In this document: piece by piece, positions 734 through 13,493 of the stretch
How positions within the stretch are numbered: position 1 is the first letter of the stretch
How the letters are laid out: the number at the start of each line of letters is the position of its first letter
NCBI GenBank assembly: GCA_947585115.1
Contig: CANPWW010000003.1
Location: 1-64,000 of the forward strand
Origin: an uncultured Monoglobus sp.
Lineage (GTDB): Bacteria > Bacillota > Clostridia > Monoglobales > Monoglobaceae
Direction of reading: 5' to 3'
DNA: 64,000 bases
Translations under genes and position numbers: made by a program
Notes under the pieces: model-generated
What the model was told of the DNA's origin: nothing
Seen by the model: the letters and a program-made list of their open reading frames with translations, nothing else
Databases searched by the model: none

Positions 734-2797
734 AATTCCGCCTTTGACGTATCGGCGCTGCCGAATCTGACCGATGTCGTTCGGCGCGACGATAACACCT
801 ATATCAATTACAAGCCCTATTTGGCGGAGGACGGCAAGTACGGCGTCAAATACGGAACCGATGTCGTGGTCGAGCCGATATGGGACGACGTGAACTTCGG
901 AAGAAACTACTTCGGGGGCCGAAGCGTAAACTCGTTTTCGGCAAGCGAGATCGAACTCACCCGAAAATATAACTCGGTCAGCTTCCGCGAGACCACGTCG
1001 TTTGACAGATTCATGTATATATTAGGCGAGGACGACGCCGAGAATGTCGAAGCCTTTGCGGAAAAGCCGATCGTCGCCGTCAAAAAGGACGGCAAATGGG
1101 GCTGCCTGGATATTTTAACCGGCAGTCTGATCATGCCCTGCGAGTACAAAGAGGTAGTGATCGACTATGACAAGATCCGCTTTATGACAGACGACGACAA
1201 GATAGGATTTACCGACATTTACGGAACCGAGATAGTTAAGCCCGTGTACGACTACGCTCAGAGCTGCACGGCGGGAGATTACATAGTTGTCGGCCGCGAC
1301 TACGGCTACACGTTGATCGACAAAACGGGCCGAGAGATCATGCCCCTCTCGGAGTACGAGCCATCAAGCATTGACGGAAAATACTTTTCCGTGACCCGCG
1401 ATGACGGATATATCGAGATATATTCCGATAGCGGCGAAAAGCTGTTCGAAAAAGAGGCGACCGATATTTCGGACTACGCCGACGGCTTGTTTGTTTTCAG
1501 CAGCGACACCGTCAAAGAAAACGGCGAGATCGAGCAGTCGTTCGAGATCTGCGACGACAGCGGACGCACGATACTGAGCGACGGCGATAAATACATGGAC
1601 CCTATCTTAATGAAGGCCTACGATACGTACTATTTTTACGGTTCGGATCTTCCGATGAGATATTCAAAGGACCTGCCCACGCTTATCCGCGTCATAGATC
1701 GGCAGCGCGATGAAAACGGCATTGCGTCCGCTTACTATTTCGACGCGGACGGAAACCTCGTTTTGAGCGGTTATGACGCGCAGGGCGGTTTCGGTCCCGG
1801 CGACAGCCTGATAAAGATCACCCAAAACGGCAAGATCGGTTTTGCCGACCGTCGAGGAAATATCGTGTATGAGCCTCAGTTTGATTACGCCGAGTACCCG
1901 ATAGGGCAAAAGGACTGCAAGACCTGCTTCCTGTTTGACGACGGATCCGTGAAGGAGATCGGCGGCTTTAAAGGGGATGTTTATCCGAACATTATTAAGG
2001 TCGGAGAAAACCTTTACTACACGGTAGGCGGCGTAAGCTGCAGCGATATGGATTATTGCGTCGGCCTGATGAATGAGAGCGGCGACTGGCTGCTGCCCCC
2101 GATCTTCGACGATATACGGCTTGAGTCCGACGGCGTTCTGAGGCTTATCACGGGCGGAAGCGAACCGCGGTACTATAGCGCGAAGCTCGCTGACGATCCG
2201 CGGCCGATAGATATTTCCCCGTACGTGGGCGAGCCGGAGCTCGATGATTTCGCGCAGTGGTTTGTTGATAATAATTATGTCACGGGCAAAACTCCCGAGG
2301 AACTGAGGACGGGCGAGCCCACCACCCGCGCCGAGTTTTTGGCGCTGCTTTCAAGGATCGACGGCTGGCAGATTGACGACGGCGCTCTCGCTGCCTTCCC
2401 CGATACCGAGGGGCATTGGGCCAACGGCGTCATATACGAGGCGAAAAACCGCGGTCTGATAAGCGGAAACGACAGCGGAAACTTTGATCCCGACGGGGTC
2501 ATAGACTTCACGGAGGAGTACGAGATCCTGCTTAAAGCGATCAATTTCCCCGGAACCGAAGACCGTTACAGATACGGCAACGACGCTTTCGGTGAGTATG
2601 TAAACGAAAGCCGCAGCGCATGCGAGCCGGTCCCGCGCCGCGCGACCTTCGCTGTTCTCAAATGCTACAACGACGAGGGCAGATATTATCAATATGACCC
2701 GGAAGCCTTTGACGACGCCAACGTTATTTCCTTCGGCGACGGCGACGGCGAAACAGTCTCCACCACATTCGCCTCCGAGGCCTACTTCTTCAATTGA
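653..2797 (+). CDS. secreted WG-repeat-like protein with C-terminal S-layer homology (SLH) domain(s)
   Basis: signal peptide; repeated 'DGKYGVKYG', 'KDGKWGCLD', 'NGKIGFADRRGNIVYEPQFDYAE' WG-type repeats; SLH-like 'TRAEFLALLSRI...FPDTEGHWANGVIYEAKNRGLISGNDSGNFDPDG'. Confidence 0.85.
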   Translation: MKNKLKQTIAAIAAAAMLAAMPAAYAENSAFDVSALPNLTDVVRRDDNTYINYKPYLAEDGKYGVKYGTDVVVEPIWDDVNFGRNYFGGRSVNSFSASEIELTRKYNSVSFRETTSFDRFMYILGEDDAENVEAFAEKPIVAVKKDGKWGCLDILTGSLIMPCEYKEVVIDYDKIRFMTDDDKIGFTDIYGTEIVKPVYDYAQSCTAGDYIVVGRDYGYTLIDKTGREIMPLSEYEPSSIDGKYFSVTRDDGYIEIYSDSGEKLFEKEATDISDYADGLFVFSSDTVKENGEIEQSFEICDDSGRTILSDGDKYMDPILMKAYDTYYFYGSDLPMRYSKDLPTLIRVIDRQRDENGIASAYYFDADGNLVLSGYDAQGGFGPGDSLIKITQNGKIGFADRRGNIVYEPQFDYAEYPIGQKDCKTCFLFDDGSVKEIGGFKGDVYPNIIKVGENLYYTVGGVSCSDMDYCVGLMNESGDWLLPPIFDDIRLESDGVLRLITGGSEPRYYSAKLADDPRPIDISPYVGEPELDDFAQWFVDNNYVTGKTPEELRTGEPTTRAEFLALLSRIDGWQIDDGALAAFPDTEGHWANGVIYEAKNRGLISGNDSGNFDPDGVIDFTEEYEILLKAINFPGTEDRYRYGNDAFGEYVNESRSACEPVPRRATFAVLKCYNDEGRYYQYDPEAFDDANVISFGDGDGETVSTTFASEAYFFN

Positions 2798-2814
2798 TGT
2801 TGTGAATATTCAAA

Positions 2815-2848
2815 ACAGGCATACCGCGCGATTGCGGTATGCCTTGTT
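2815..2848. terminator. bidirectional Rho-independent terminator between convergent genes
   Basis: caggcataccgcgcgattgcggtatgccttg stem-loop with flanking A/T runs. Confidence 0.75.
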
Positions 2849-2859
2849 TATTTTCAAAA

Positions 2860-3477
2860 CTATTTGCCGAGAAGTTCGGCTATTTTGAATTTGATTTTTA
2901 TTTCGGGCGTGCTGCCTGTTATCAGTTCATATTCCGAATCGGTCAGGCTTTCGCGCAGCTTTTGGTCGGCCTCGGCGGCGGTCACGCCGTCCACAAAGCA
3001 AAGCGGCGGATACATAACGCACCACCAGTTGGCGCCCGCCGCCTCGCCTATCCCGACGTTTAACGCCGAATACTCGCCCCGGGGCAGCGACACCGCGCCG
3101 AACGTCCGCTCGTAGCGTTTTGTCGGGAACGCGCGCCGCTCAACTCCGCAGCTCACGTCGTAGTCATAGCCCTCGCTCCGAATAACATCACGAGCCACAT
3201 ATTTTATAAAGCCGAGATTGTTGTTTGCCGCGCGTTCCGATTCCTCGAGGGTGCGGCAGTCGCGGAACAAAAATCCGCAGCGCTCGATTATCTCGTCCCT
3301 GACCTTGAGCTTCAGCGCCTGGTCCGCCCCCGAGTCGCTGTTCGCCACGATGTGCAGCCTCAGCACGCTTGATTGTATGTCCTCGGTCTCGCGGCCGACA
3401 AAGCTCAGATAGACCACCGCGGCGAGCGTCGCCGCGAGAATTACTCCTATGAGCCTCATGTAATTGATTTTCGGCAT
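2860..3477 (-). CDS. spoIIR: stage II sporulation protein R
   Basis: N-terminal TM then 'SSVLRLHIVANSDSGADQALKLKVRDEII' and 'GAVSLPRGEYSALNVGIGEAAGANWWCVMYPPLCFV' typical of SpoIIR. Confidence 0.93.
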   Translation of the reverse strand: MPKINYMRLIGVILAATLAAVVYLSFVGRETEDIQSSVLRLHIVANSDSGADQALKLKVRDEIIERCGFLFRDCRTLEESERAANNNLGFIKYVARDVIRSEGYDYDVSCGVERRAFPTKRYERTFGAVSLPRGEYSALNVGIGEAAGANWWCVMYPPLCFVDGVTAAEADQKLRESLTDSEYELITGSTPEIKIKFKIAELLGK

Positions 3478-3556
3478 ATTTTACCTCCGGAATATAAGTT
3501 TATAAGAAGTATTGACCGAAAATCCGAATTTATACACGCGAGGAAATGAGAGGGTT

Positions 3557-4318
3557 TTACTCGATAACAAGCTCCACCGGGCAGTGGTCGGAGCCGAATA
3601 TTTCCTGATGAATGGCGGCTGATCTCAGGCGGTCCCTCAATTTATCCGACGCGATAAAATAGTCGATGCGCCATCCGGCGTTCTTTTCTCTGGCGCGGAA
3701 GCGATACGACCACCAGGAATACTCGCCCGCGGCGTCGGGATAAAAGTGTCTGTAGGTGTCGATGTAGCCCATGCCGAGAAGCTTAGTCATCTCGGCGCGC
3801 TCTTCGTCGGTAAAGCCCGCGTTTCTGCGGTTGGTTTTCGGGTTTTTGAGGTCAATCTCATTATGCGCCACATTGAGGTCGCCGCAGATCATGACGGGCT
3901 TTTTCTGCTCAAGACCCGCGATGTATCCGCGGAGCGCCTTTTCCCACTCGATCCGATAGTCCAGCCGTCTGAGCTCGTTTTGCGAGTTGGGCGTGTAGCA
4001 GGTGATAAGGTAATAGTCCTCAAACTCGGCGGTGATCAGCCTACCCTCGGTGTCGTGCTCGGGGATGCCCATGCCGTACGTCACCGATATCGGCTCGTCT
4101 TTGGTGAACATGGCGACGCCCGAATATCCTTTTTTCTCGGCGCAGTTCCAAAAGTCATGATATCCGTCGAGCATTTCCGAAAGGTCGATCTGACCTTTTT
4201 GCAGCTTGGTTTCCTGGATGCAGAAAACGTCAGCATCGGCCTCTTTGAAATATTCGCAGAATCCTTTTTGAACGCAGGCGCGCAGGCCGTTCACGTTCCA
4301 TGATATAAATTTTTTCAT
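3557..4318 (-). CDS. xth: exodeoxyribonuclease III (AP endonuclease)
   Basis: MKKFISWNVNGLRACVQKGF...CIQETKLQ...GDLNVAHNEIDLKNPKTNRRNAGFTDEER...GSDHCPVELVI. Confidence 0.95.
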   Translation of the reverse strand: MKKFISWNVNGLRACVQKGFCEYFKEADADVFCIQETKLQKGQIDLSEMLDGYHDFWNCAEKKGYSGVAMFTKDEPISVTYGMGIPEHDTEGRLITAEFEDYYLITCYTPNSQNELRRLDYRIEWEKALRGYIAGLEQKKPVMICGDLNVAHNEIDLKNPKTNRRNAGFTDEERAEMTKLLGMGYIDTYRHFYPDAAGEYSWWSYRFRAREKNAGWRIDYFIASDKLRDRLRSAAIHQEIFGSDHCPVELVIE

Positions 4319-4376: not shown

Positions 4377-4394
4377 ATATCCTATTGCTCGGGC

Positions 4395-4417
4395 GGGCGG
4401 ATAATATCCGCCCCTAC
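4395..4417 (-). repeat. REP-like GTAG-hairpin element (reverse orientation)
   Basis: gggcggataatatccgcccctac = reverse complement of gtaggggcggatattatccgccc. Confidence 0.85.
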
Positions 4418-4432
4418 AATGTAACGAAACCT

Positions 4433-4500: not shown

Positions 4501-4604
4501 GACGGAGGTGGGAACGTAGTAAATAGTTATTAGCGAATAGCGAATACGCGAAAATAATTCGGTGTAAAATTTTCACATATCTCTGCGAGATATCGTTCCA
4601 CCCT

Positions 4605-4628
4605 GTAGGGGCGGATATTATCCGCCCG
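4605..4628 (+). repeat. REP-like GTAG-hairpin element
   Basis: gtaggggcggatattatccgcccg, same as 142..165, with a shared ~30-bp upstream extension ending in atatcgttccaccct. Confidence 0.85.
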
Positions 4629-11598: not shown

Positions 11599-11775
11599 TA
11601 AAATCAGTAGGGCGGTTTTGGCTTTATATAAATATGAATTTTGGCGGATAATATGGAATACAAATCAAGAAAACGAAACAGACTTGAATATTATAGTTAT
11701 TCTCAAAGCGGCGCGTATTTTATAACTATATGCACAAAAGACAAAAAGTGTATTTTAGGTAAGGTGGTTGTAGGG

Positions 11776-11801
11776 GTAGGGGACGGCGCCCTCGACGTCC
11801 C
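11776..11801 (+). repeat. in-frame GTAG-hairpin element, left arm of a 26-bp perfect inverted repeat inside the transposase gene
   Basis: gtaggggacggcgccctcgacgtccc; reverse complement of 11950..11975. Confidence 0.95.
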
Positions 11802-11949
11802 TAAAATGAATCCGTCTCCGCTCGGTAAAATTGTTGACGATGAAATAAAAAAGTCCGGAGAGATTTATGAAAGCGTGAAAATAGATAAATACATAGTTAT
11901 GCCGAATCATGTTCATATGATTTTGATTGTTGAAAATGATAATGAAAGT

Positions 11950-11975
11950 GGGACGTCGAGGGCGCCGTCCCCTAC
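11950..11975 (-). repeat. in-frame GTAG-hairpin element, right arm of the inverted repeat
   Basis: gggacgtcgagggcgccgtcccctac. Confidence 0.95.
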
Positions 11976-12170
11976 GAACGAGATAGTGCCGTCATTTGTG
12001 TCAATGCTTAAAAGGTTTACGAATAAAAAGACGGGAATATCATTATGGCAGCGTTCTTATCATGATCATGTGGTACGCGATGAGAAAGATTATGAGAGGA
12101 TATGGAATTATATAGATACTAATTTGTTTAAATGGGAACAGGATCGTTATTATATCAAGGAGGGAAGCTT

Positions 12171-13493
12171 ATGAAACCGACAGTCGCCGTTGTGGGGCGG
12201 CCCAATGTTGGCAAATCCACATTTTTCAACAAGGTCGCCGGAAAACGGATATCAATAATAGAGGACACTCCGGGCGTGACGCGTGACAGGATCTACGTTG
12301 ACGCCGAATGGTGCGGCCGCGAATTTACAATGATCGACACCGGCGGAATCGAGCCGGGTACCGATGATGTTATATTAAGTCAGATGCGCGCACAGGCGGA
12401 GCTCGCCATTGACATGGCGGACGTTATAGTGCTTATCGTCAATGTGCGCGACGGCGTGACGGCCGCCGACAGCGATGTTGCCGCCATGCTGCAAAAGAGC
12501 GGCAAACCCGTGGTTCTGGCCGCAAACAAGGTGGATAGCCCCGGCGAGCCGCCCATGGAGATATACGAGTTTTATAATCTCGGCTTGGGTGATCCGTGGC
12601 CCATATCCTCGGTCCACGGTTTGGGGCTCGGCGATCTGCTCGATGAGATAGTGAAGTATTTCCCCGAGGACGCGGAGCCGGAGGACGAGAGCGACATTAT
12701 TCACGTGGCGATCGTCGGCAAGCCCAACGCGGGCAAATCGTCGCTCGTGAATAAGATATTGGGCGAAGAGCGCGTGATAGTCAGCGACATAGCCGGAACC
12801 ACCCGCGACGCCATCGACACGCTGTATGAGCGAAACGGCAAAAAGTATATGCTGATCGACACCGCGGGCATGCGCAAGCGCGGCAAGATCAATGAGAATG
12901 TCGAACGCTACAGCGTGACGCGCGCCCTGAACGCGGTCGACCGCGCCGACGTGTGCCTGATAATGGTGGACGCCGCCGAGGGCATAACCGAGCAGGACAC
13001 CAAGATCGCCGGCTATGTCCACGAGGCCGGCAAGGCGTCGGTTATCGTGGTGAACAAATGGGACCTGATCGAAAAAGAGACCAACACCATGCGCAACTTT
13101 AAGAACAAAGTCAAAGAGGGCTTTAACTTCATGATGTACGCGCCGTCGGTGTTTATCTCCGCAAAGACCGGCCTCCGCGTGAACGATTTGTTTGAGGTCA
13201 TGGAAGCGGCGGTGGAGCAGAATTCAAAGCGCATCTCGACAGGCGTTCTAAACGACGTGCTGAATGAGGCTGTGGCGGCGGTGCAGCCGCCCAGCGACAA
13301 GGGCCGCAGGCTCAAGATATACTACGCCACTCAGGCGGGAACAAAGCCGCCCACGTTTGTGCTGTTTGTAAACAGCGGAAAGCTGGCGCACTACTCATAC
13401 GTCAGATATATCGAGAATCAGTTCAGAGCGCGCTTCGGCTTTGAGGGCACGCCGATAAAGTTTATAATTCGAGAAAAAGGGGAGAAGAAGTAA
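12171..13493 (+). CDS. der: ribosome biogenesis GTPase Der
   Basis: two GTPase domains: 'VGRPNVGKSTFFN...DTPGVTRDR' and 'VGKPNAGKSSLVNKI...DIAGTTRDAIDT'; KH-like C-terminus. Confidence 0.97.
   Translation: MKPTVAVVGRPNVGKSTFFNKVAGKRISIIEDTPGVTRDRIYVDAEWCGREFTMIDTGGIEPGTDDVILSQMRAQAELAIDMADVIVLIVNVRDGVTAADSDVAAMLQKSGKPVVLAANKVDSPGEPPMEIYEFYNLGLGDPWPISSVHGLGLGDLLDEIVKYFPEDAEPEDESDIIHVAIVGKPNAGKSSLVNKILGEERVIVSDIAGTTRDAIDTLYERNGKKYMLIDTAGMRKRGKINENVERYSVTRALNAVDRADVCLIMVDAAEGITEQDTKIAGYVHEAGKASVIVVNKWDLIEKETNTMRNFKNKVKEGFNFMMYAPSVFISAKTGLRVNDLFEVMEAAVEQNSKRISTGVLNDVLNEAVAAVQPPSDKGRRLKIYYATQAGTKPPTFVLFVNSGKLAHYSYVRYIENQFRARFGFEGTPIKFIIREKGEKK

Follow-up and report, generated by a model that had tools for sequence, protein, structure and literature searches.

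In E. coli, TnpA_REP binds and cleaves single-stranded DNA that carries a GTAG-foot hairpin (PMC8266576, PMC3733652), and in such REPtrons an enzyme is matched to a cognate family of REPs with a GTAG foot and a bulged hairpin on the flanks of its gene. Two inverted REPs around a spacer make up a REPIN (Bertels and Rainey 2011, PMC3116915). Palindromic repeats can also be read in frame in protein genes, as in the Rickettsia palindromic elements and the intragenic REPs known in many genes (PMC3733652). The closest described case is subclass 2.4, equated with Bertels group 4, for which the main text of Quentin et al. (2018, PMC6006769) gives in-frame REPs inside tnpA_REP, generally between HuH and Y, as a unique feature, and in which the genes also have flanking REPs.

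Here we describe a RAYT gene in a 64,000-nt stretch of gut-bacterial Monoglobus DNA (the window) that resembles each of these systems and matches none of them fully. Like subclass 2.4, it combines in-frame REPs with NHVH, WQ and Y-x-x-x-N motifs and an insert of variable length that separates the HUH strand from helix C; unlike subclass 2.4 as its main text presents it, the window gene has one REP on each side of HUH, and like REPs are usually absent within 1 kb. Of the subclass motifs as published, on which this comparison is made, NH[IFV]H reads NHVH and YIxNNP reads YIDTNL in the window protein. As in a REPtron, an enzyme is found with its probable cognate REP family of GTAG-foot, bulged hairpins, but the flanking REPs by which a REPtron is recognized are replaced by REPs inside the ORF. 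The inverted pair around a spacer recalls a REPIN, except that the spacer is coding sequence ending in the catalytic HUH motif, and the in-frame reading of palindromes recalls the Rickettsia elements, whose host genes, however, are not the repeat's own transposase. Because the Clostridial relatives of the window gene have one REP per side of HUH and not the HuH-Y layout, we treat the arrangement as a variant of known in-gene REPs; REPs between HuH and Y, as in subclass 2.4, do occur in three distant relatives (L149, L153 and L155). A literature search that covered the main text of Quentin et al. returned no text on paired REPs flanking HUH. What is added to the text on subclass 2.4 is the split HUH-flanking pair, its concerted evolution, and a single genome in which two enzymes are matched to two REP families.

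The RAYT (TnpA_REP) gene occupies 11653..12174 on the plus strand, starts with ATG and encodes 173 amino acids. An earlier note made from the letters of the window had called it a RAYT/Y1-like ORF at 11641..12174; its end and frame hold, and the TTG that opens the listed ORF at 11641 gives way to the ATG at 11653, which is favoured by relatives. Upstream lies an rpmF-like gene for ribosomal protein L32 (11341..11520, plus strand), and on the 3′ side a der-like GTPase gene (12171..13493, plus strand) overlaps the RAYT stop codon with its ATG (ATGA). With this stop/start overlap and a GGAGGG just 5′ of it, both within 12158-12174, the RAYT may be translationally coupled to the der-like gene.

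The codons of the HUH histidines (11908-11910 and 11914-11916), of the catalytic tyrosine (12109-12111) and of the metal-ligand asparagine (12121-12123), all on the plus strand, specify H86, H88, Y153 and N157, which are invariant or nearly so in an alignment of 62 relatives, where the HxH, WQ, DH..R and Y...N motifs are likewise conserved. The class 2 signature Y---NP reads YIDTNL in the window protein, with L for P, and YIDTNP in the family consensus. The window protein matches the NCBIfam profile REP_Tyr_transpos at 60 bits (E 2e-16; curated cut-off 80) and the Pfam profile Y1_Tnp at 15.6 bits (cut-off 23); at E 0.001, these profiles are matched by 62/62 and 55/62 of the aligned relatives, respectively. 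A Pfam search alone recovered neither RAYT of the source genome, and both were recovered by the NCBIfam profile and with the window protein as query. The AlphaFold model (pLDDT 85.8) has E. coli TnpA_REP (4er8) as its best fold match in the PDB, followed by ISDra2 and IS608, and the residues assigned to GTAG contact in 4er8 by the main text of Quentin et al. (PMC6006769) are conserved in the family as W, Q, D (replacing E), H and R. On the strength of its HUH and tyrosine motifs, its fold and the profile matches of its relatives, the window gene is a RAYT of the Y1 HUH type, as the note had proposed.

The 26-nt REP 1 (GTAGGGGACGGCGCCCTCGACGTCCC; 11776..11801, plus strand) consists of GTAG and a hairpin and encodes VGDGALDVP, in a loop that joins two beta strands ahead of the HUH motif. 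REP 2 (11950..11975, minus strand) is its exact reverse complement, read as GTSRAPSPT in the loop that leads from the HUH strand to the following helix. Between them, a 148-nt segment (11802..11949, plus strand) encodes the part of the protein that leads up to the HUH motif and the motif itself. Both REPs are in frame with the ORF, and the pair has the REPIN-like orientation, with GTAG ends outward. Abutting REP 1 is an extra GTAGGG (11770..11775, plus strand), a 6-nt tandem duplication that was not seen in the aligned relatives of the same genus. As single-stranded DNA, each arm is predicted to fold (−9.7 kcal/mol) into a hairpin with a 6-bp stem and, beyond a bulge, a 2-bp upper stem with its loop; GTAG stays unpaired at the foot. 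In the AlphaFold model the REP-coded residues 42-50 and 100-108 form lower-confidence loops on either side of the HUH-bearing strands, and relatives without REPs have shorter loops at both sites (e.g. L134). The sequence, coordinates, frame and exact complementarity given by the earlier note all stand, and the homologue alignment that it suggested bears out its placement of the arms in loops flanking the HUH core. In Rfam, the sole match was a sub-threshold microRNA, which we discarded as a chance effect of a long inverted repeat.

Chance or faulty assembly might in principle produce such a pair, since the source is a metagenome-assembled genome (MAG) in 125 contigs and repeats may cause misjoins. 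Shuffled windows, however, give 0 expected chance matches for an inverted 26-mer pair, and two independent MAGs of the genus (L076, L077) have the same gene with the same REP pair, which rules out chance or misassembly and makes the probability of this reading negligible.

The REP to which the pair belongs (REP-A) is dispersed through the source genome. Its 22-nt core has 42 copies genome-wide with at most two mismatches, 32 of them exact, and a reversed-pattern control found 0 matches in the same genome; the core of the 26-mer therefore occurs well beyond its own gene, the question for which the note had suggested a genome search. Nearly all copies have the GTAG foot. Apart from the in-gene pair they are mostly singlets, and none lies elsewhere in the 64-kb window. 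Most of the 42 fall outside long plausible ORFs, as scored by spanning ORFs and not by gene prediction, the exceptions being the RAYT pair and the loci L020 and L027. By its GTAG-foot hairpin, its dispersal and its mostly extragenic distribution, the window 26-mer is a genuine GTAG REP, as the note had suggested from its foot and hairpin.

Both exceptional loci are of some interest in themselves. In L027 (G000:C36:12900-16900), an ORF at 1491-3983 on the minus strand reads from a P-type ATPase through an array of one REP-A and four REP-B copies. It then enters a CopZ-like metal-binding domain with a Met of its own, so that two genes seem to have been joined in frame through the REPs. In L020 (G000:C16:9600-14100), three REP-A copies lie close together at about 2018-2541, two of them inside a long ORF that is low in complexity, rich in Ser, Gly and Ala, and has a signal-like start, so that its product looks secreted.

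The source genome has a second RAYT, on contig C60, and no further one was found there. This gene contains three exact in-frame copies of a different repeat, REP-B (GTAGGGGCGGATATYATCCGCCC), two in forward orientation ahead of HUH and the third reversed behind it, and REP-B has 117 copies in the genome. There is no cross-carriage: the window RAYT is free of REP-B and the C60 RAYT is free of REP-A. Under random placement over the genome, a Poisson estimate puts the probability of at least two REP-A copies in the window RAYT at ~5e-5 and that of at least three REP-B copies in the C60 RAYT at ~5e-6. The window itself contains a perfect inverted REP-B pair (4394-4418 and 4604-4628), whose arms are 185 nt apart and whose GTAG ends point inward, and further REP-B copies at 142 and 32479.

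We gathered relatives of the window RAYT by protein similarity, with the peptide patterns of the large scan placed outside the REP-coded loops, and counted pairs from the best-matching arm pair in each gene. A matched inverted REP pair flanking HUH, with one REP per surface loop, was found in 71 of 90 full-length relatives; the other 19 divide into 8 with a single REP-like copy and 11 with none. Across clades, 75/77 forward copies share one codon phase, a figure taken from an arm set in which arm 2 was misplaced (on a wrong GTAGG) in three genes. The REP itself differs between clades, the 71 paired genes falling into 16 coarse REP groups, and these groups follow the protein tree, which was built with REP-coded residues masked (17 label changes, vs a shuffled mean of 34.9 and minimum of 32). 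When five REP types were searched in 22 genomes, genomes generally held the type of their own RAYT; some types were limited to their own clade, and others were more widely shared. One genome (G063) has many doublets of its own REP. Among the 61 genes with enough flanking sequence, 52 are free of like REPs for 1 kb beyond the ORF. Judged by these alignments, the in-gene REP pair is an old, position-conserved arrangement. The note's proposal that the enzyme had inserted its own substrate into its gene fails here as a single event: pairs recur at the same two sites with clade-specific REPs, which rules out a one-off insertion into the window gene.

These observations also bear on a reading in which the copies are selfish REP insertions, tolerated and without a role. 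The loops would accept eight or nine extra residues, the copies would be refreshed from the genomic pool, and the RAYT gene would be struck more often than others since the protein would act close to where it is encoded. Such tolerance has precedent, in that REPs have been described inside many genes (PMC3733652) and in-frame REPs occur in other genes of the source genome, in the linker between the ATPase and the CopZ-like domain of L027 and in L020. It fits poorly with the recurrence of the same two loops and the same orientation, with the first copy in a shared frame, across clades, or with the few changes of REP label on the tree, and the pair is kept in a small MAG (G069) where the pattern finds no other copies. 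We therefore consider tolerated insertion unlikely, though serious enough to keep in view. The G069 case further indicates that an in-gene pair need not accompany an expanded REP family.

The two arms of a gene resemble each other closely. Within a gene, arm 1 and arm 2 are identical at 15.7 of 18 positions on average in that same arm set, with its three misplaced second arms, vs 8.4 after shuffling (maximum 9.8 in 2000 shuffles). Between genes, same-arm identity equals cross-arm identity, which points to concerted change of the arms. In a GACGGCG-type subset, selected by REP type, identity is 94.5% for the arms, compared with 55.8% for the rest of the gene and 48.8% for third positions of conserved residues. 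Homogenization is not tight, as shown by G011, where each in-gene copy has one mutation and most dispersed copies are exact.

This pattern decides against selection at the protein level, by which VGDGALDVP and GTSRAPSPT would be functional loops and their likeness to REP DNA secondary. The VG that opens loop 1 and the PT that closes loop 2 are indeed widespread, but the peptides switch wholly with REP group (to VGADIIRP, VGAIHESP or VGQGLAPA), the loops are absent from REP-less relatives, and the arms differ far less in DNA sequence than do the third positions of conserved residues elsewhere. The turnover of peptides with REP group, together with the arm identity at the DNA level, rules out functional peptide loops as the explanation, and we give it next to no weight.

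Where the arms differ, they tend to remain hairpins. Among the 30 stem pairs at which a gene's two arms differ, 21 are compensated within the arm, 5 are still paired (G-T, one-sided change) and 4 are broken, so each arm is preserved as its own hairpin, whether by selection or through replacement by other intact REPs. Wholesale replacement of this kind is also expected if the insertions are merely tolerated. The same differences bear on the note's idea of an autoregulatory hairpin. On this reading, a 26-bp stem formed by the arms in the mRNA would enclose the HUH-coding segment and control translation or message stability. The stem does appear in the predicted fold of the ORF (−149 vs −118 kcal/mol for shuffles, z = −5.1), but the same fold would be expected of any inverted REP pair, and the segment does not lie near the start codon. 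In 16 genes, moreover, changes compensated within an arm break arm-arm pairing, which argues against a selected mRNA duplex. The predicted stem thus stands and the regulatory role assigned to it becomes highly doubtful.

Across the genus, REP-A copy number goes with the state of RAYT-A, at 16-55 copies with an intact or recently broken gene vs 0-13 without. Genomes with intact RAYT-A (G000, G009, G003, G011) have 42, 16, 55 and 38 copies; those in which an insertion into the hairpin loop of REP 2 has disrupted it (G006, G010) have 41 and 45; and those with no RAYT-A match or only a remnant (G002, G004, G001, G007, G008, G005) have 13, 8, 0, 0, 0 and 0. In the RAYT genes of two genus members (L079, L091), a ~94-nt insertion within the REP 2 hairpin loop (in the region of about 3300-3410) breaks the frame, and L091 also carries a TAG codon in frame ahead of HUH. 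At the rpmF-der locus, G003 retains only the 5′ part of a RAYT, ending just past REP 1, and G005 only the 3′ part. A RAYT remnant in G029 (L072, 1428-1698, minus strand) has lost the central segment, with REP 1 and REP 2 fused to a double-foot REP (GTAG...CTAC), the product that the main text of Quentin et al. (2018, PMC6006769) predicts when the centre between inverted REPs is deleted.

Two further observations concern repeats and RAYTs outside this series. G032 has 131 copies of a REP-A-like repeat, although the RAYTs identified in it contain other REPs; this incomplete MAG may lack the matching RAYT. On two contigs of one MAG (L136 and L143, about 2900-3480), near-identical N-terminally truncated RAYT copies have the same terminator-like hairpin just before REP 1, with shared flanks and possible inverted ends (gtactctaaaggacagtaa), and the unit is perhaps a mobile RAYT element.

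From comparison of the sequences, the arms belong to a REP family, are old, change in concert, keep their own hairpins and mostly lack like REPs on their flanks. Our preferred reading, to which we assign a probability of about 60%, is that the window RAYT has its cognate REPs built into its own frame, as a compact REPtron in which enzyme and substrate are linked and co-evolve. One REP sits in each of two surface loops flanking HUH, in REPIN orientation, and the enzyme would recognize the GTAG-hairpin single strands of its own gene, by analogy to E. coli TnpA_REP acting on external REPs. Against this reading stand the 19 relatives that lack a matched pair, the loose homogenization in G011, the unexpanded family in G069 and the many REP copies of G032. 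Such recognition would make the gene a compact REPtron, in which enzyme and substrate would stay linked and evolve as one gene, and a moving gene would carry along the seed of a new REP population. The REP would then be dual-use DNA, a substrate at the DNA level and a harmless spacer at the protein level, because the loops tolerate the insert. That one REP-carrying arrangement is found with lineage-specific REPs in most relatives suggests that the enzyme and its probable substrate evolve together. More speculatively, the split pair might be a selected cis element, where binding or excision by the gene's own enzyme limits that enzyme and where the shared frame drives new REP specificities. We hold this to be clearly improbable at present; if true, the HUH-coding segment would be lost on excision, with a double-foot REP left behind like that of L072.

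Under the compact REPtron reading, a single stretch of DNA is both a probable transposase substrate and a protein loop, and recoding could separate the DNA-level from the protein-level roles of in-gene REPs. The REP family of such a RAYT would be predictable from its gene alone, and the 16 coarse REP groups in 71 genes would provide natural enzyme-substrate pairs for mapping specificity, which bears on how RAYTs are matched to REPs and on the origin of new REP families.
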